IMG/VR virus record: IMGVR_UViG_3300044631_000748
Location: 1 to 34,403 of that record
DNA: 34,403 bases
Source of the DNA: a virus
Reading direction: 5' to 3' (one strand)
Part shown: one piece after another, positions 25,936-33,501 of the stretch
Numbering within the stretch: position 1 is the stretch's first letter
How the letters are laid out: each line of letters opens with the position of its first letter
The notes under the pieces: model-generated
Told to the model about the DNA's origin: nothing
What the model saw: the letters and a program-made list of their open reading frames with translations, nothing else
Database searches by the model: none
Translations under genes and position numbers: made by a program

Positions 25936-26267
25936 GTAGTTGGGCAGAAATAAATTCAGATAATAAAGTTATTCGGGTTCTTGTTGGTGATAACAATGAC
26001 CTAGCAGGTGATGAAGGTTATCAATGGTTGATAGATAATCTTGGTGGCACTTGGATAAAAACAAGTTACAATTCTAATATCAGAGGCACATACGCTGGTA
26101 TCGGATATATATATAATCCTGATGAGGATATATTTGTAACTCCACAACCTTATCCATCTTGGACAAGATCAGGTTCTTTTTGGAATCCACCAACTCCTAG
26201 ACCTACCGAAGGTTTTTGGACTTGGGATGAAGTTAGCCTAAGTTGGGTTGAAAGCACAATCCTCTGA
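25932..26267 (+). CDS. Tail-associated protein of the aquatic-phage type
   Basis: 111 aa. WAEINSDNKVIRVLVGDNND, LGGTWIKTSYNSNIRG, YAGIGYIYNPDEDIFVTPQP, PSWT and FWTWDEVSLSWV match a small protein I know from many marine and freshwater phages, usually encoded next to tail fibres. Role unverified; often treated as a fibre accessory protein. ATGA overlap with the adhesin gene. Confidence 0.7.
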   Translation: MSSWAEINSDNKVIRVLVGDNNDLAGDEGYQWLIDNLGGTWIKTSYNSNIRGTYAGIGYIYNPDEDIFVTPQPYPSWTRSGSFWNPPTPRPTEGFWTWDEVSLSWVESTIL

Positions 26268-26280
26268 GATTGTTCTAAAT

Positions 26281-27069
26281 ATGGAACACATACCATTGGA
26301 GATCATCAAAGAAAAACTGCGGGATAGATATGAAACCCAAGGTTATTCAATGGCTATGTTCAATAATGATTTTAATTTATTATTACGCTTAAATGTTCAT
26401 CCCCAGGCGGCAACTACTGAGGATTTACAAAGGCTAATAATGAGCGTTAAGGCAGCCTCTACAAAAGGTACCTACGCCGCAAGAGTTCGCAGTATCTTTA
26501 AGGCCCTGCGCAAAATGGGTTTAATTACTAATCAGGCTGATCTTGATTTGCCAGCCGTTCGCAAGAAGCGTGGGTTACCTCACCCGCTAACGCCAGGCGA
26601 AGCCGAATTAATTATGACTAAGGCAGAACTGCCAATGCGAGATTGGTTCATAATCGGCTGCAAAGCAGGATTGCGGGCTATGGAGGTTGCCAACCTTCGT
26701 GGAGTAGATTTAGAAAAAGTAGATGATGGGCATATTCTCAGAGTTGCTGGCAAAGGTGGAACTGATTTATCTGTACCAGTAGCCGATATTGTTGCTCAAA
26801 CAATTTTAAAGCACGAAACACCAGGCAAAATTTGGTCAGTTACTCCTAACCGATTAACCAAATTATGTTCCTTGGAAATGAAGCGGCTTGGAATTCCAAA
26901 GAAAACCTTTCACGCCTGCCGCCATTATTTTGCAACCAATATGCTAGAGCGATCAAACGGCGATCTGCTAGCAGTAAGAGATTTGATGAGGCACTCATCA
27001 GTTGCAACCACTCAGGTTTATACGCAACTCGCCAGCGGTAGAACTCGATCATTAGTGAATCTGTTGTAA
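26281..27069 (+). CDS. int: Tyrosine recombinase / integrase
   Basis: 262 aa from the ATG at 26281; an in-frame TTG at 26248 would overlap the upstream gene and neither start has a good ribosome site. All catalytic residues are present: Arg132 (GLRAMEV), Lys158 (GKGGT), His211-x-x-Arg214 (HACRH), His238 (RHSSVATT) and Tyr247. The N-terminal SAM-like/core-binding domain is residues ~1-90. An integrase among tail and lysis genes is unusual; it may integrate the phage, resolve multimers, or invert tail genes. An 8-8-8 dyad follows 37 bases downstream. Confidence 0.92.
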   Translation: MEHIPLEIIKEKLRDRYETQGYSMAMFNNDFNLLLRLNVHPQAATTEDLQRLIMSVKAASTKGTYAARVRSIFKALRKMGLITNQADLDLPAVRKKRGLPHPLTPGEAELIMTKAELPMRDWFIIGCKAGLRAMEVANLRGVDLEKVDDGHILRVAGKGGTDLSVPVADIVAQTILKHETPGKIWSVTPNRLTKLCSLEMKRLGIPKKTFHACRHYFATNMLERSNGDLLAVRDLMRHSSVATTQVYTQLASGRTRSLVNLL

Positions 27070-28320: not shown

Positions 28321-28584
28321 ATGAATCGGGGGAAAATTTTAGATGAGGCTAAAGCGCTCACTTACGCCGACAGGCAAGATGATTATGGAACGCCTGCTAT
28401 TAACTTTAATCGTATCAGCAGGCTTCTATCTGCTTATCTGGATTGCGAGATAACACCAGAGCAAGGCGCTATGATTTGCGCACTGATCAAAGTAGCAAGA
28501 TCAATGGAAACCTATAAGGCAGATAATTACATTGATGGCGCTGCTTATTTTGCGATTGCGGGGGAGTTAGCAAATGGTGGATAG
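28321..28584 (+). CDS. DUF6378-like phage protein
   Basis: 87 aa. ILDEAKALTYADRQDDYGTP, NFNRISRLLSAYL, EITPEQGAMICALIKVAR and DNYIDGAAYFAIAGEL fit this small helical phage family. Members are often near nucleotide-related genes, but no activity is proven. GGGGGAG for the next gene lies in its last codons. Confidence 0.8.
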   Translation: MNRGKILDEAKALTYADRQDDYGTPAINFNRISRLLSAYLDCEITPEQGAMICALIKVARSMETYKADNYIDGAAYFAIAGELANGG

Positions 28585-29248
28585 TGATTTAATAGTTCTT
28601 ATTCCAACTAGGGGGCGGCCTGATAATGCCGTTGCTTTAGAACAGGCTTTTGTAGATACAAATACAAAGGCTGTAAGATTTTATATTGTAGATTTTAATG
28701 ATGAAACTCGAAGCCAGTACTCCTGGAAACTGCCAGTTGAATCTGTAATTATGATTCATAATGAAACTGGTGGGATGGCTTATCCACTAAATTACATCGC
28801 CCGCCAATTTATAGGCGAGTTTGATAACTTTGCATTTATGGGTGATGATCACCGCCCAAGAACTGCTAACTGGGATGAGAAGTTTGTTGAGGAACTTTAT
28901 ACAGGCTCAGATATTGTTTATGGCAACGATCTATTCCAAGGCTCAGCCCTACCAACTGCGGTTGCGATGTCAGGTGAGATTGTAGAAGCCTTGCGAGGAA
29001 TGGTTCCTGATACTCAGCGCCATTTATACTTAGATAACTTCTGGCTAAAACTTGGTCAGGATTTAGGCAAGATCAAATACCTACCTGATGTAATCATTGA
29101 GCATTGCCACGCCTTTAATGGTAAGGCACCGATGGATGAAAATTACGCCAGGGTAAACGCTCCTGAAGTTTATTCAGCCGATAAAGTTGCCTATGATAAT
29201 TACATTACCAGCGATCAATACCAAACGCTATTGGGTAAATTAAAATGA
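28574..29248 (+). CDS. Glycosyltransferase-like protein (GT2/GT-A type)
   Basis: 224 aa. VLIPTRGRPDNAVALEQAF is the nucleotide-sugar-binding start of family-2-like enzymes; FAFMGDDHRPR provides a DxD-like GDD; YGNDLFQG and HLYLDNFWLKLG complete the fold pattern. First of three coupled sugar genes. Substrate unknown; could modify virion glycans or host surface. Confidence 0.75.
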   Translation: MVDSDLIVLIPTRGRPDNAVALEQAFVDTNTKAVRFYIVDFNDETRSQYSWKLPVESVIMIHNETGGMAYPLNYIARQFIGEFDNFAFMGDDHRPRTANWDEKFVEELYTGSDIVYGNDLFQGSALPTAVAMSGEIVEALRGMVPDTQRHLYLDNFWLKLGQDLGKIKYLPDVIIEHCHAFNGKAPMDENYARVNAPEVYSADKVAYDNYITSDQYQTLLGKLK

Positions 29249-29835
29249 AATTAAATGATTTGTTTGATGCAATTATTGTTGTGAATTTAGATAGACGACC
29301 TGACCGATTAGCGGCGATAACACATCAATTAGATTCTTTACAGGTAACTTGGAAAAGATGGCCAGCGATTGATGATCGTGGTACTGATATGACACCTATT
29401 TTTTGTAATGTGATGAATGGTGTAAATAGATTGTTATATGCACAATGGAAAGAATATAAACAAATATTATTGTTAGATGATGATTGTGAATTTGTAAATG
29501 ATTTTGAAACCAAATTAGATGAAGTTTGGCCACAAATCCCCGATGATTGGGATACGGTCAGTTTTGGCGATCATTTGATTTCAGCGACACCAATTACAGA
29601 TAAAATACAAAAAATAGATTCATCTTATGGTGGCCATGCAACCGCAATAAAAATGAGTTGCTTACCTGTATTATTGAATGGATTTAAAGGTAAGAATTTT
29701 GCTGATTTAGAATTAAATGCCATGAGCGGTAATTTAAATAGATATGTTATTGAACCTGGTTTAATAGGGCAGGGCCGTTATGAATCAGATTTAGTTGGCG
29801 GTATTAGACCTAATATTTACAATTTGTGGCAATAA
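29245..29835 (+). CDS. Glycosyltransferase family 25-like protein
   Basis: 196 aa. IIVVNLDRRPDRLAAI is the classic GT25 start, and LLLDDDCEF supplies the acidic metal motif. The coding sequence is notably richer in A/T third positions than its neighbours (runs of TTATTGTTAGATGATGATTG type), which hints at separate acquisition. Overlaps both neighbours. Confidence 0.75.
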   Translation: MKLNDLFDAIIVVNLDRRPDRLAAITHQLDSLQVTWKRWPAIDDRGTDMTPIFCNVMNGVNRLLYAQWKEYKQILLLDDDCEFVNDFETKLDEVWPQIPDDWDTVSFGDHLISATPITDKIQKIDSSYGGHATAIKMSCLPVLLNGFKGKNFADLELNAMSGNLNRYVIEPGLIGQGRYESDLVGGIRPNIYNLWQ

Positions 29836-30698
29836 TGAAAATCTTAATTACAGGCGATGAAGGTTTTGTAGGTAGAGCCTTTCATAGAGCGCTAGACACA
29901 AAGAATAATGAAGTAGTTGGCTTTGATATTAAATCAGGCATCGATGCTCGCAAATTCTTTGCAGCCGATAACACTTACTTTGATGTTGTAATCCACTTGG
30001 CCGCCGTTGTCGGTGGCAGAGCCACCATTGAAGGTAATCCTTTGGCAGTTGCCACTGACCTGGCAATTGATTCTGACCTTTTCCAATGGGCGCTTAGAAC
30101 TCGCCCTGGGCGAATAGTTTATTTCTCATCCTCTGCTGCTTATCCAATTATGTTGCAGCGAGCAAGATTTAAAGCAAAGTTATCTGAGCAAGATATAAAT
30201 TTAGAACACATTAGAACTCCAGATCAAACTTATGGTTGGAGTAAATTAACTGGCGAGATGCTGGCGCAGTACGCCAGAGATGAAGGCTTGAAGGTAAGTA
30301 TCCTTCGCCCATTTTCAGGATATGGCGCTGATCAATCTTTAGATTATCCATTCCCATCATTTATTGCCAGGGCTAAGGCGAAAGCATCACCATTTAAAAT
30401 ATGGGGATCAGGTCAGCAGGTAAGAGATTTTGTACATATTGACGATGTAGTTCAAGCAACTTTTGCAGCCATTCTTAATGGCGTTGAAGTTATGAATATC
30501 TGCTCTGGTAGGGCAACCTCTTTTATTGATTTAGCAGAAATGATGATGTTATCTGCTGGATATTTAGCACCAATCCAAACTGATATAACTGCGCCAGTTG
30601 GCGTTGAGTATCGTGTTGGTAATCCAAGATTTATGAATATGATTTATGAGCCAAAGATTTCTTTGGAGCAGGGTATAGCGCAAGCGCTAGCCCAATAA
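29835..30698 (+). CDS. NAD-dependent epimerase/dehydratase (extended SDR)
   Basis: 287 aa from the ATG at 29835 (TAATG overlap). Rossmann motif ITGDEGFVG, HLAAVVGG, SSSAAY, catalytic YxxxK (Tyr133, Lys137 in YGWSK), RPFSGYG and VRDFVHIDDVV are all in place. It makes a modified nucleotide sugar, presumably for the glycosyltransferases before it. It ends right at the bidirectional terminator. Confidence 0.9.
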   Translation: MKILITGDEGFVGRAFHRALDTKNNEVVGFDIKSGIDARKFFAADNTYFDVVIHLAAVVGGRATIEGNPLAVATDLAIDSDLFQWALRTRPGRIVYFSSSAAYPIMLQRARFKAKLSEQDINLEHIRTPDQTYGWSKLTGEMLAQYARDEGLKVSILRPFSGYGADQSLDYPFPSFIARAKAKASPFKIWGSGQQVRDFVHIDDVVQATFAAILNGVEVMNICSGRATSFIDLAEMMMLSAGYLAPIQTDITAPVGVEYRVGNPRFMNMIYEPKISLEQGIAQALAQ

Positions 30699-30747: not shown

Positions 30748-31104
30748 TTAATTATTTATTAAAGCATCTACACTTCTTTGAACTCTAGTTGTTGCATCAT
30801 CAACTAAAATTCCATTTCTGTAAATATCGTAAAGATGCGCTTCCTTATTCCAAACTTCAGTGTAATCATTTGATAACCAATCCCACGCTTTATCTTTATT
30901 ACTTATTGCGGTTGATTTCCAAATCTTGCCATCGAAATAAGTTACATCATTTGCCTCATCAACAAAATCTAAAGCCAATCTTTGCTTTAAATCTATTGAT
31001 GATTCCTTAAGTATTTCTACTCGGTTATCTGAAAGATTTTTTACAATAAGTAAACCTTCAGCATCGCCAATTTGTCCATCCTTTGTTATGTATATCGCTT
31101 TCAT
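30748..31104 (-). CDS. Hypothetical protein, end of leftward operon (118 aa)
   Basis: AAAAGGAAGG precedes the ATG. Beta-rich N terminus (MKAIYITKDGQIGDAEGLLI) and helical C terminus (DKAWDWLSNDYTEVWNKEAH). It has its own promoter and a 5' hairpin (31123-31141). The largest leftward protein; no family recognised. Confidence 0.7.
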   Translation of the reverse strand: MKAIYITKDGQIGDAEGLLIVKNLSDNRVEILKESSIDLKQRLALDFVDEANDVTYFDGKIWKSTAISNKDKAWDWLSNDYTEVWNKEAHLYDIYRNGILVDDATTRVQRSVDALINN

Positions 31105-31122
31105 TTGTTACCTTCCTTTTCT

Positions 31123-31175
31123 ATTGAGGAGTTTCCTCAATGCTATAAGTGTATCGACAAAAACCAGATTATCAA
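31123..31175 (-). promoter_or_regulatory. Leftward promoter P3 and 5' hairpin
   Basis: On the minus strand TTGATA (31170-31175) and TACACT (31148-31153) are 16 bases apart. Just downstream, ATTGAGGA/TCCTCAAT (31123-31141) is a perfect 8-bp stem with a 3-base loop near the mRNA 5' end, ahead of the ribosome site. The stem could stabilise the message or bind a regulator. Confidence 0.55.
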
Positions 31176-31179
31176 GCAT

Positions 31180-31347
31180 CTAGTTATTTGTTTCATTTTT
31201 AATTGTAATCCAACACCAAGAACAAAAACCTAATCTGGTAAGAGTTGGATTTTTCTTACTTGATTTAACATCACTACACCATTCATCACCGCAAGTTTGC
31301 AAAGCAACTGGGGTGCCACCGCTATCTTTAATTTCACCAATAATCAT
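31180..31347 (-). CDS. Small Cys-rich protein (55 aa)
   Basis: TAATG overlap with the gene before it. CGDEWC and CSWCW supply two pairs of cysteines around a basic loop; probably zinc-binding. Function unknown. Confidence 0.65.
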   Translation of the reverse strand: MIIGEIKDSGGTPVALQTCGDEWCSDVKSSKKNPTLTRLGFCSWCWITIKNETNN

Positions 31348-31640
31348 TATAGTTTCACTCCCAACTCTCTAGCATAAGCGCCAAAAACTGTATCTGAATC
31401 AAAGTTTAATTGAGCAATTGCCATCTTTACTATTTTAGTTTTGTTAGCAATTGTTTTTCCCTCTTGGCGTAATTGCTTATCTAACTTCTCAACATTTTGA
31501 GTAGCAATTTCTTTTTTAGCACTATCAATTAATTGTTGAAGTATTGCAACTGCTGCAACATCAGATGAATTAAAAACATCTGAACCAATTATTTTATTTA
31601 CAAATGCTAACTTCTGATCTGCTGTTACTTTGTTTGTCAT
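31347..31640 (-). CDS. Hypothetical helical protein (97 aa)
   Basis: The ATG at 31640 is chosen because AAGGAAGG lies 6 bases upstream inside the duplicated control cassette; the frame is open further. Predicted all-helical (LAFVNKIIGSDVF, VAAVAILQQLIDSAKKEIAT, KIVKMAIAQLNF). First gene behind promoter P1. Function unknown; size and charge would suit a small regulator or inhibitor. Confidence 0.7.
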   Translation of the reverse strand: MTNKVTADQKLAFVNKIIGSDVFNSSDVAAVAILQQLIDSAKKEIATQNVEKLDKQLRQEGKTIANKTKIVKMAIAQLNFDSDTVFGAYARELGVKL

Positions 31641-31646
31641 TTTCTT

Positions 31647-31722
31647 GCCTTCCTTTTGTGGGCTACCTGGTGTATCCCAATAAGATAAATGTATAGACAT
31701 TTGTCTATCTAGTCAAGTACCT
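31647..31722 (-). promoter_or_regulatory. Control cassette copy 1 (promoter P1, operator, ribosome site)
   Basis: Minus strand: TTGACT (31711-31716), 17-base spacer, TACATT (31688-31693), AAGGAAGG near 31647-31654. The spacer holds the perfect dyad TAGACA-TT-TGTCTA in plus orientation at 31694-31707. Nearly identical to 33318-33394. A ribbon-helix-helix protein encoded between the two copies is the obvious candidate ligand. Confidence 0.7.
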
Positions 31723-31954
31723 ATCCCAAAATATCCTTCGGCGTGTCGATCCCAGCAACCGCCCGCTTAGCCTGGCTCTTATAGCCCAAATTCAGCATCC
31801 AAGGGGGTACTGGCCGCAGCGGGCGCTGGCGGCTGAGGCAAACTATGCCCAAGGCCACCCAACCTCCCATAAAGCCTAGGATCGCCCAGGGCAGCACTCG
31901 CCTGCCCTTGCCAATCGCCACTAGCGCCGTTAATACCATCCAAAGGATTCTCAC
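31721..31954 (-). CDS. Small membrane protein (77 aa), GC-rich gene
   Basis: GTG start overlapping the ribbon-helix-helix gene stop. Two hydrophobic segments (ILWMVLTALVAIG and VLPWAILGFMGGWVALGIVC) followed by a basic Pro-rich tail. The gene is visibly richer in G+C than its neighbours, suggesting a different origin. The 3' end runs into control cassette copy 1. Confidence 0.7.
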   Translation of the reverse strand: MRILWMVLTALVAIGKGRRVLPWAILGFMGGWVALGIVCLSRQRPLRPVPPWMLNLGYKSQAKRAVAGIDTPKDILG

Positions 31955-32082
31955 TTGATGTAATCTTTCAAATAATCATTGATTACCTCAGAGGCGGTTT
32001 TGCCCTCCGCTGCTGCCTTGATTCTTACTTTGTTCCAAATTGCATCTGCAATTCTTACTGATCTTTGCGGTTTCGTAGCCAT
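31951..32082 (-). CDS. Ribbon-helix-helix (Arc/CopG-type) DNA-binding protein
   Basis: 43 aa. The strand PQRSVRIADAIWNKVRIKAA followed by EGKTASEVINDYLKDYI is a minimal ribbon-helix-helix: beta strand, helix, loop, helix. Such proteins dimerise and bind short dyads as repressors. AGGAGA precedes the ATG, which overlaps the upstream stop. It is the best candidate regulator of the two dyad-bearing promoters of this operon. Confidence 0.85.
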   Translation of the reverse strand: MATKPQRSVRIADAIWNKVRIKAAAEGKTASEVINDYLKDYIK

Positions 32083-32252
32083 TATTCTCCTAATAGTGTT
32101 TTTAGATGCGGATTTAAAACTTTCATACTTAGATAGATAGCCCTGCTCATTTCATCAGGATCGCTGCTATTGCTAGCAGCAACTAGAACCTCGGCTGATG
32201 CCAACATATCCATCTGCATTTCTGTAAATAATGCTTTCATTGCGCCCATCAT
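32082..32252 (-). CDS. Small helical protein (56 aa)
   Basis: GGGAGGTG lies 5 bases before the ATG. Met-rich helix (MKALFTEMQMDMLASAEVLV), then SSDPDEMSRAIYLSMKVLNP. TAATG overlap with the next gene. No family recognised. Confidence 0.65.
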   Translation of the reverse strand: MMGAMKALFTEMQMDMLASAEVLVAASNSSDPDEMSRAIYLSMKVLNPHLKTLLGE

Positions 32253-32253
32253 T

Positions 32254-32397
32254 TCACCTCCCTTTCATCATCATATTGGAATGCAAAACATCGCACTTTG
32301 GGCAAACTAGGCATTGGAACTGTTCGCCATTGTCATATTGATACCAGCGGCGAACTAAGTTGCTGCTAGGTTTTTCACACATCATGCAACTATTCAT
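32254..32397 (-). CDS. Small zinc-finger protein (47 aa)
   Basis: CMMC near the N terminus and CLVCPKC after ~22 residues form a treble-clef/ribbon-like set. AAGGAGG lies 7 bases before the ATG. Ends in a Met/basic tail that contains the next gene's ribosome site. Function unknown. Confidence 0.65.
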   Translation of the reverse strand: MNSCMMCEKPSSNLVRRWYQYDNGEQFQCLVCPKCDVLHSNMMMKGR

Positions 32398-32519
32398 TAG
32401 TTTGCCTCCTTAATTTCAATTGCTTCAATATAGGCTTCTAACTCCTCATTAAACATTTCATCACAGTTAGAGCAAGTTATAGCCTTTGCAGATAATTTAG
32501 AACCGCATTCACAAATCAT
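32397..32519 (-). CDS. Small zinc-ribbon protein (40 aa)
   Basis: CECG and CSNC knuckles (ICECGSKLSAKAITCSNCDE) followed by an acidic helix ending KEAN, whose codons include the ribosome site for the next gene. TAATG overlap. Function unknown. Confidence 0.65.
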   Translation of the reverse strand: MICECGSKLSAKAITCSNCDEMFNEELEAYIEAIEIKEAN

Positions 32520-32520
32520 T

Positions 32521-32685
32521 TTACTTACCCTCTCCAAGATAGCACTTATCCATCGATCCGAAGCAGTAGCCGTCGCCAGTGTAATTAATGTGAGTTGCCA
32601 AGAAATAAATCGTGGCCAGCATTAGTAGCCAGAAACTTATCCTGGCTACCTTGCGAACTTGATAGTAGTTTTTAGAGCGTTGCAT
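32521..32685 (-). CDS. Small single-pass membrane protein (54 aa)
   Basis: The ATG at 32685 follows GGAGG and overlaps the stop of the previous gene. A basic N terminus (QRSKNYYQVRKVAR) precedes one membrane helix (ISFWLLMLATIYFLATHI), then a short outside tail with two Cys (YCFGSMDKCY). Topology by the positive-inside rule: N inside. Confidence 0.7.
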   Translation of the reverse strand: MQRSKNYYQVRKVARISFWLLMLATIYFLATHINYTGDGYCFGSMDKCYLGEGK

Positions 32686-32837
32686 TAGTTGGCCTCCTGT
32701 TTTCCATAAATTGAGTACCATCTTTTTTCATATTCAGAAGCACAAATTTCGCAAGCAACTCCTCGGCCAAAATATTCTCTTGCGCCTTGCTTATCGCAAA
32801 TATCACATTTCCATTTTAAATTTATCAATGGTTTCAT
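32685..32837 (-). CDS. Small zinc-finger protein (50 aa)
   Basis: CDIC and CEIC about 18 residues apart (WKCDICDKQGAREYFGRGVA) then a Tyr/Trp-rich helix and QEAN end. The ATG at 32837 is preferred over an upstream in-frame start because it overlaps the previous stop and follows an AGGTG site. Function unknown. Confidence 0.7.
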   Translation of the reverse strand: MKPLINLKWKCDICDKQGAREYFGRGVACEICASEYEKRWYSIYGKQEAN

Positions 32838-33142
32838 TAGTTGGCACCTACCTTTACAATTTGTTTTGCATTTTTCTTTGCTGTTGCTCCACCAGCACAT
32901 TTACAAACTTTAACCATTTGCCAGAAACCAAATTTTGCAAGTGTTTCTGTAAAACGGCCTTCTGCATCATCAATGCAACCTTCAATTGCATTTTCAATTG
33001 TTACAAATTTATCATCCCAAATTCCTTGAACATTTGAACTGATTCTTTTTGTAATTTTGCAATCACTATTATGAACACTGTATGCGTTGCGGCAATCATC
33101 GTGGTCATACCATCCCCAGTTACAAACAACTGTATAGGTCAT
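32837..33142 (-). CDS. Hypothetical Cys/Trp-rich protein (101 aa)
   Basis: Second gene of the operon. VVCNWGWYDHDDCRNAYSV, FVTIENAIEGCIDDAEGRFT and a CKCAGG segment near the C terminus. Ends VGAN. Mixed alpha/beta by pattern. No family recognised. Likely a metal-binding or disulfide-free intracellular protein. Confidence 0.65.
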   Translation of the reverse strand: MTYTVVCNWGWYDHDDCRNAYSVHNSDCKITKRISSNVQGIWDDKFVTIENAIEGCIDDAEGRFTETLAKFGFWQMVKVCKCAGGATAKKNAKQIVKVGAN

Positions 33143-33312
33143 TATTTTGCCTCCACAACAGTAATTTTATATGCGTTTGCTTTTGTTTCCTTGCGAACTA
33201 CTTTGCAATCTGCACACCAGCACTTGCGAACACGAAGGTTGCTATCGCTAGAGATACAAATTGAATCTAAGCAGTATTGATTACAGTTACATACTTTGTT
33301 ATCTAGTTTCAT
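33142..33312 (-). CDS. Small Cys-rich protein (56 aa), first gene of leftward operon
   Basis: Seven cysteines (VCNCNQYC, ICISS, KCWCADC) then a basic C-terminal strand ending VEAK. The ribosome site AAGGAAGG belongs to control cassette copy 2. TAATG overlap with the following gene. Function unknown. Confidence 0.68.
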   Translation of the reverse strand: MKLDNKVCNCNQYCLDSICISSDSNLRVRKCWCADCKVVRKETKANAYKITVVEAK

Positions 33313-33317
33313 TTGGT

Positions 33318-33394
33318 GCCTTCCTTTTTATGGGCTACCTGGTGTATCCCAATAAGATAAATGTATAGACATTTGGCTATCTGGTCAAGTACCT
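33318..33394 (-). promoter_or_regulatory. Control cassette copy 2 (promoter P2, operator, ribosome site)
   Basis: Minus strand: TTGACC (33383-33388), 17-base spacer, TACATT (33360-33365), ribosome site near 33318-33325. The dyad in the spacer (33366-33379) has one changed base compared with copy 1 (TAGCCA instead of TAGACA), so it may bind the regulator more weakly. Drives the long leftward operon. Confidence 0.7.
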
Positions 33395-33501
33395 GCAAAT
33401 CCAGCCCTCGGCGTGTCGGCCTTATTACTCCAGCCAATGTCAGTTACTTATGCCACACTTACGCCTACGCCCAACACTGGGCGCTTAAAAGGGGGTAAGG
33501 A
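33395..33501 (+). promoter_or_regulatory. Divergent control region and 5' leader of the rightward early operon
   Basis: Between the leftward promoter P2 and the first early gene. A weak extended -10 (TGCCACACT, 33451-33459) and a hairpin CGCCCA/TGGGCG (33468-33483) precede GGGGG (33491-33495) and the ATG at 33502. On the minus strand GACACGCCGAGG (about 33403-33414) matches the 3' end of the 31721-31954 gene, suggesting that the duplicated cassette carried a fragment of that gene. Confidence 0.4.

Follow-up and report, generated by a model that had tools for sequence, protein, structure and literature searches.

The window analyzed here, that is, the whole 34,403-nucleotide stretch of virus record IMGVR_UViG_3300044631_000748 (IMG/VR), carries a leftward operon of twelve micro-protein genes at positions 30748-33312 (minus strand). 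We consider it probable that this operon is a self-regulated accessory module of an actinobacterial tailed phage, which would serve an early, self-limiting takeover of the host and is built from promoter-hairpin cassettes. Five of its genes (TM54, Zn47, h56, RHH43, and memb77) form a core, and the remaining seven are cassettes that phages exchange with one another and that also move from promoter to promoter. Judging from sequence comparisons, the product of RHH43, a ribbon-helix-helix (RHH) protein of 43 amino acids (aa), is very probably an autorepressor of the module's promoters.

The original prediction that the operon has promoters of its own was confirmed. We found two TTGAC-N17-TACATT promoters (P1 and P2) and one TTGATA-N16-TACACT promoter (P3), each followed by a leader in which a short stem-loop comes first and AAAGGAAGG stands at the end. 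The regulatory features are as follows.

33409-33418, minus strand: conserved box CGACACGCCG (CGMCACGCCG) of the divergent region, found in 60 of 68 loci, where its density is about 50 times that elsewhere
33360-33388, minus strand: promoter P1, TTGACC-N17-TACATT, conserved in relatives
33363-33380, minus strand: proposed operator in P1, ATAGCCAAATGTCTATAC, made of half-site GTATAGAC and a degenerate inverted partner
33313-33359, minus strand: P1 leader, 5' stem-loop and Shine-Dalgarno sequence
31688-31716, minus strand: promoter P2, TTGACT-N17-TACATT
31691-31708, minus strand: proposed operator in P2, ATAGACAAATGTCTATAC
31641-31687, minus strand: P2 leader, 5' stem-loop and Shine-Dalgarno sequence, within an 86-bp repeat common to P1
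31148-31175, minus strand: promoter P3, TTGATA-N16-TACACT, with half-site GTCGATAC at 31151-31158
31105-31147, minus strand: P3 leader, stem-loop TTGAGGA-AAC-TCCTCAA
30697-30742, both directions: bidirectional terminator with perfect 16-bp arms and A/T tracts (z about -7.5), ending the leftward operon and the converging rightward epimerase gene

Because only two TTGAC-N17-TAnnnT sites were seen in 34 kb versus 1.5 expected by chance, we dropped their count as evidence by itself, and the support for the promoters is comparative. Among 51 distinct leaders from all groups, the mean folding z was -1.94 and 75% fell below -1, although the stem sequence itself varies (GGAAC/GTTCC, GGGGA/CCCC, and GAGGA/TCCTC versions). 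P1 and P2 both contain ATAG-N-CAANTGTCTATAC, and the half-site GTATNGAC occurs three times in the genome, once per promoter (33388, 31716, and 31175), and nowhere else. Across 24 distinct promoter sequences, the arms of the dyad pair at 6.0 of 8 positions versus 2.5 (standard deviation, 0.24) when the left arm is shuffled; conservation is 1.53 bits for the left arm, 1.65 bits for the -35 element, and 0.85 for the leader region. The control region shows a 40-fold enrichment of GTATRGAC (63 of 68 anchored loci), which is rare elsewhere except at internal promoters. In the L130-L139 group, the half-site is directly repeated at a 12-bp interval (GTATGGACAATCGTATGGAC), and in others it is inverted in place. 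Among nuclease-related loci without RHH (about 50 with enough upstream sequence), the site was found in only 3, and the distant locus L061, which was fetched via the nuclease rather than via RHH, possesses RHH, the half-site, and a similar gene set.

A second copy of CGACACGCCG is located at 31739-31748, in the 3' end of the memb77 gene, at the same distance from P2 as the first copy from P1. In L127-L165, the leader of the first module gene carries CTCTTATCGGCAAGGAGCGAATGTCTCAGCCGGTGGGGG, which is common to distant groups and whose predicted stem would sequester the ribosome site, making this leader a possible translational switch.

RHH43 matched the phrog_6506 family of Arc-like repressors (E 4e-10; 1e-10 for a distant member). 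The curated cut-off of Pfam RHH_1 was not reached (19.8 bits for the distant member versus 20.5), with the window protein giving weak RHH-type matches, and the sole match of the RHH profile in the Protein Data Bank (PDB) was the omega repressor (E 0.049). As described in a citing paper (PMC3874152), omega and RHH regulators like it recognize repeats within the promoters of their own genes. Phages of Mycobacterium, Gordonia, and Arthrobacter encode homologues of RHH43 with 38-44% identity. Nine of the 13 RHH loci from cultured phages and prophages (four distinct sequences) have two GTATNNAC sites exactly 12 bp apart upstream, compared with 0.0 in shuffles and no other 12-bp GTATNNAC pairs in 40.9 kb. 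The pair precedes the start of an opposite-strand RHH micro-operon in Majeke (RHH = gp56; pair GTATATAC), GreaseLightnin, Hamulus, Seagreen, DillTech15, Babsiella, and GMA1, and lies 240-440 bp upstream of RHH in prophi104-2 and prophi_GD43-6. The occurrence of 12-bp pairs in unrelated cultured genomes, as predicted from the metagenomic loci, is the strongest evidence that RHH recognizes a GTATNNAC-type site. In Arthrobacter phage MrSmee, RHH is the last of seven genes in a leftward micro-operon, and no 12-bp pair is present.

Both prophi104-2 and prophi_GD43-6 seem to hold the RHH open reading frame (ORF) where an opposite-strand gene is annotated. RHH micro-operons with GTATNNAC pairs often adjoin DNA methyltransferase genes (L177, L178, L179, L182, L183, L185, L186, and L188).

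Twelve leftward coding regions of 40-118 aa had been predicted, and all twelve ORFs were found on the minus strand, making 30748-33312 94% coding. ATG-initiated ORFs of at least 40 aa span 96% of the module strand, compared with a mean of 17% (maximum, 51%) in 500 shuffles and 16% on the opposite strand. Four starts were moved inward (71 aa to 50 aa from 32837; 66 aa to 54 aa from 32685; 46 aa to 40 aa from 32519; and 117 aa to 97 aa from 31640), the last because its upstream start falls within the promoter/leader. Adjacent genes share stop and start bases as predicted, with one base in common at 33142, 32837, 32685, 32397, 32082, and 31347, and a 4-base overlap at the 31954/31951 junction. 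The genes are as follows, in the order of leftward transcription.

33142-33312, minus strand: slot-1 cassette gene, 56 aa with 7 Cys in CxC/CxxC clusters, in 5 of the group-1 loci and absent from closer relatives
32837-33142, minus strand: slot-1 cassette gene, 101 aa, 6 Cys
32685-32837, minus strand: slot-1 cassette gene, 50 aa, CxxC...CxxC zinc-finger-like, corrected start
32521-32685, minus strand: core TM54, single transmembrane segment, C-terminal two-Cys loop (YCFGSMDKCY), corrected start; pN/pS 0.23, 66 loci
32397-32519, minus strand: sub-slot cassette gene, 40 aa, two Cys pairs, ending in EAN with an embedded Shine-Dalgarno sequence
32254-32397, minus strand: core Zn47, predicted CxxC-beta hairpin-CxxC-LH zinc finger; pN/pS 0.27
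32082-32252, minus strand: core h56, probably helical; pN/pS 0.19, 69 loci
31951-32082, minus strand: core RHH43, Arc-like ribbon-helix-helix, proposed autorepressor; pN/pS 0.13
31721-31954, minus strand: core memb77, small and hydrophobic (membrane protein), starting with GTG and overlapping the RHH gene by 4 bp; pN/pS 0.20, 62 loci
31347-31640, minus strand: slot-2 cassette gene, 97 aa, helical, corrected start; AlphaFold2 (AF2) confidence score (pLDDT) 68, same family under P1 in L126
31180-31347, minus strand: slot-2 cassette gene, 55 aa, four Cys, zinc-ribbon-like
30748-31104, minus strand: slot-3 cassette gene, 118 aa, shared with L114/L115/L118 at 96-97% identity and missing from closer relatives

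The five core frames are conserved, with ratios of nonsynonymous to synonymous polymorphism (pN/pS) of 0.13-0.27 over the 10-13 distinct relatives tested first, among which they are under strong purifying selection. Accessory frames recur in fewer relatives; pN/pS was 0.66 for the 97-aa frame, and several others had too few distinct sequences for a selection estimate. Cysteine makes up 33 of 794 module residues, a five-fold enrichment over the other genes that were tested (73 of 9117; p = 5e-14). Pairs of the CxxC type number 8 versus 2.2 in residue shuffles (P = 0.0006). The claim that most of the proteins are Cys-rich and zinc-finger-like was correct for half of them: five carry paired CxxC/CxC-type motifs and a sixth (32837-33142) is Cys-rich only. 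The predicted RHH protein and two membrane proteins (TM54 and memb77) were all recovered. In Zn47, the putative zinc finger of the core, CxxC/CxxC is invariant in a 16-sequence alignment, and the AF2 model is a hairpin-helix (pLDDT 85.7). Distant forms of TM54 are present in L048, L061, and L127-L159.

Searches of Pfam, PHROGs, NCBIfam, and PADLOC with the micro-proteins named only RHH, the other matches being sub-threshold. Foldseek on the AF2 models of Zn47 and the 97-aa protein gave no significant PDB fold match; weak matches of Zn47 to mycobacterial RNA polymerase complexes (E about 2-3) were not used. Cultured phages yielded no match in a nucleotide search with the module or in protein searches with Zn47 and TM54, and Rfam and tRNA scans found nothing.

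To define core and cassettes, we searched IMG/VR with RHH, which gave 80 loci, or 81 with the window. RHH is present in 81 of these, h56 in 69, TM54 in 66, memb77 in 62, and Zn47 in 57, with contig ends accounting for some absences. In 42 close loci, about 35 families occupy slots behind P1, P2, and P3, together with one sub-slot between TM54 and Zn47; 43 families were listed, some of which we discounted as apparent artefacts of a simple gene caller. The similarity of cassettes does not follow that of core and backbone. For example, the slot-1 cassette is 97% identical to that of L104, the core of which is 91% identical, and is absent from relatives whose core is 96-97% identical. Families 13, 16, and 55 were found under P1 as well as P2, and in L126 the 97-aa gene stands behind P1 but has a leader of the P2 type. 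Genes of different families end alike (EGK, EAN, or GAN), and these ends contain the ribosome site and the start of the gene that follows. The P1 and P2 promoter-leader units form an 86-bp repeat with 88% identity. These gene-end motifs and the 86-bp repeat may be natural recombination points.

Since the genome ends carry a 127-bp terminal direct repeat, the record is an assembled circle. The window encodes a WhiB-like protein, a RusA-like resolvase/nuclease, a methyltransferase, a primase-type protein, HK97-type head genes, a tyrosine integrase (26248-27069), and glycosyltransferase/epimerase genes, some of these names having been assigned by reading the translations only. WhiB is a marker of actinophages (PMC6802176; PMC10202952), and the closest cultured terminase (TerL) is that of Pontimonas phage phiPsal1 (49.6%), followed by phiC31-type phages. 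The phage is probably a freshwater one, and its host is probably a low-G+C actinobacterium, with which the G+C content of the window (42%) is consistent. When phiPsal1 was checked for a comparable operon, only one leftward cI/cro-like gene was present. Among close relatives, the integrase occurs in some and not in others with the flanking genes kept, indicative of lysogeny gain or loss among close phages.

The operon had originally been described as an accessory or lysogeny module. The accessory part of that description stands: the operon is dense, lies opposite other genes, and has exchangeable content fitting host takeover, anti-defence, or competition. A link specific to lysogeny did not emerge. 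We regard it as unlikely, though deserving of serious consideration, that the module confers lysogeny or superinfection immunity, being expressed from the prophage, with RHH as the immunity repressor on the divergent region and the membrane proteins excluding superinfecting phages. Such a role would suit the integrase, the divergent layout resembling that of temperate actinophages, the status of RHH as the only recognized DNA-binding regulator besides WhiB, the two membrane proteins in the module, and the RHH homologues in temperate-type mycobacteriophages and Mycobacterium abscessus prophage records. However, the close sister G001 (33.4 kb), which shares almost all backbone genes (most 83-99% identical; replication, head, and lysin mostly 92-99%, tail and methyltransferase lower), retains P1, P2, and the core, and its tail and lysin genes flank about 620 bp at the integrase position. 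No PF00589 tyrosine recombinase was found in G001, G003, or G004, in all of which the module is present, no PF00239 serine recombinase was found in 9 records, and several near-complete distant relatives likewise carry the module without an integrase. In addition, nuclease and capsid protein queries against 84,980 genomes found no prophage. Because G001 keeps the module without a recombinase and no prophage was found, the module does not depend on lysogeny. A role in lysogeny alone is thereby disfavored, although the module might be of use to a prophage as well. Moreover, GTATNGAC is confined to the three leftward promoters and absent from the rightward start, so that RHH would not obviously shut off the lytic genes.

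It is rather improbable, in our estimate, that the dyad is bound by another factor (a host regulator, the phage WhiB, or the zinc finger) or is a mere strong promoter copied with cassettes, while RHH regulates something else. The right arm of the dyad overlaps the -10 element, the promoter copies are related by duplication (the 86-bp repeat), other factors may act at the second conserved box CGMCACGCCG, and RHH binding to the dyad is a prediction from sequence. Yet the left arm, which is dispensable for a promoter, is nearly as conserved as the -35 element and stands above the neighboring leader in the bit scores given above, and unrelated cultured RHH phages share the 12-bp half-site pair with no other core genes in the annotation of those loci. 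A toxin-antitoxin or addiction module, in which RHH would be an antitoxin repressing its own operon and one micro-protein the toxin, appears very improbable: RHH proteins are common as antitoxins, autoregulation is typical of such modules, and a weak ParD_like match was obtained (E 0.053), but an RHH of 43 aa is too short to include a toxin-binding tail, Pfam, NCBIfam, and PADLOC revealed no toxin family, and the core comprises five genes rather than a pair.

Several observations weigh against a self-regulated takeover module. Four of the 13 cultured RHH loci lack the 12-bp pair, and in the cultured prophage loci L183 and L185 RHH is not annotated as a gene of its own. Of the paired half-sites in the window, the second is degenerate (3 mismatches in P1), and a single clear half-site is seen at P3. 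Because RHH was the query that retrieved loci L086-L165, the co-occurrence of RHH and site there is partly circular, and relatives share descent. The accessory proteins showed no recognized function or fold in family and structure searches, the window phage itself encodes an integrase, and the early timing is proposed by analogy with other phages.

Under the takeover reading, which we nevertheless prefer, host sigma-A RNA polymerase would transcribe the module leftward from the three similar promoters as the genome enters. The mRNAs, with their 5' stem-loop and strong ribosome site, would provide a burst of stable, well-translated message, and translation would be coupled through the overlapping stop and start codons. 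The chassis would consist of the five conserved proteins (two membrane proteins, a zinc finger, h56, and RHH), while the seven cassettes would recombine through the repeated promoter-leader units and gene-end motifs. RHH would occupy GTATNNAC half-sites, 12 bp apart, between -35 and -10, and its accumulation would shut the promoters, producing a pulse of expression. This pulse would most likely fall early in infection, with the micro-proteins targeting host factors or competing phages. Of this picture, the sequences themselves establish the genes and promoters, the conserved core frames, the exchange of cassettes, a conserved and specific half-site, and independence from the integrase, whereas RHH binding and repression, early timing, zinc binding, and the targets are inferred.

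The host takeover module of SPO1 (26 genes) consists of small, early genes with strong promoters and ribosome-binding sites (PMC6873191). Both modules are small-gene clusters apart from the structural genes with such promoters and ribosome-binding sites; in contrast, no homology was found, takeover and toxicity were measured in SPO1 whereas the present module is known from sequence, and SPO1 is a strictly lytic Bacillus phage. Leftward genes 143-171 of mycobacteriophage Wildcat are 29 small, early genes, 41% of them toxic, that are mosaic and have repeated intergenic motifs (PMC7474061). They likewise form a mosaic leftward small-gene set in an actinophage, but lie 80-100 bp apart with no promoters recognized, whereas the module here is translationally coupled with a conserved core and RHH. 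As described in citing papers, the promoter-early stem-loop (PeSL) cassettes of T4-type phages and the HGTV-1 motifs are repeated promoter and stem-loop units tied to gene shuffling (PMC4503421, PMC3950731). Similarly, our module has three host-type promoter-stem-loop units between variable genes, with evidence of gene shuffling there; it differs in that the genome is not that of a T4-like myovirus, the stem-loop forms a 5' leader with a ribosome site after it, and a candidate operator lies in the promoter.

In the Cluster K phage Adephagia, the start-associated sequence (SAS) and its extended form (ESAS) comprise a SigA-like promoter with an inverted repeat, repeated before small genes (PMC3203893, PMC11373665), and the regulator of the ESAS is unknown (PMC11373665). 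The module here differs in encoding a candidate regulator inside the operon. The 13-bp Cluster K SAS GGGATAGGAGCCC gave 3 matches in the window at 3 mismatches versus 4.3 expected, none of them in the module. The phrog_6506 phages (Majeke gp56, Hamulus gp69, GMA1) resemble it in the RHH sequence, the opposite-strand micro-operon, and paired half-sites in its own promoter region, but their micro-operons mostly have 2-3 genes and, so far as seen, none of the other core genes. The omega repressor of pSM19035 is similar in its RHH sequence, but it is a regulator from a plasmid and recognizes another DNA sequence.

More tentatively, and at somewhat less than even chances, these data may point to a widespread actinophage control unit, in which a tiny RHH protein and a GTATNNAC operator in 12-bp register switch promoter-hairpin units with pluggable micro-gene payloads, the five-gene core being a conserved takeover chassis in uncultured freshwater actinophages. 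What had been a set of orphan micro-ORFs becomes, through the present analysis, a unit open to testing, for which a regulator, an operator, and a logic are predicted and whose conservation extends from phages known through metagenomes to cultured phages of Mycobacterium and Gordonia. It offers a candidate answer to the type of question posed by recurrent actinophage promoters with inverted repeats, such as the ESAS of Adephagia. Some 35 micro-protein families, roughly half of them with Cys pairs, emerge as takeover or anti-defence candidates in an abundant, barely cultured host group.

Before the module, positions 28574-30698 hold two glycosyltransferase-like genes, the 196-aa one absent from most relatives examined, and a nucleotide-sugar epimerase gene. 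On its other side (33419-33501), the leader of the first mRNA running rightward also contains a hairpin, CGCCCAACACTGGGCG, then AAAAGGGGG, before a 50-aa gene; a consensus sigma-A -35 element for this transcript was not evident.

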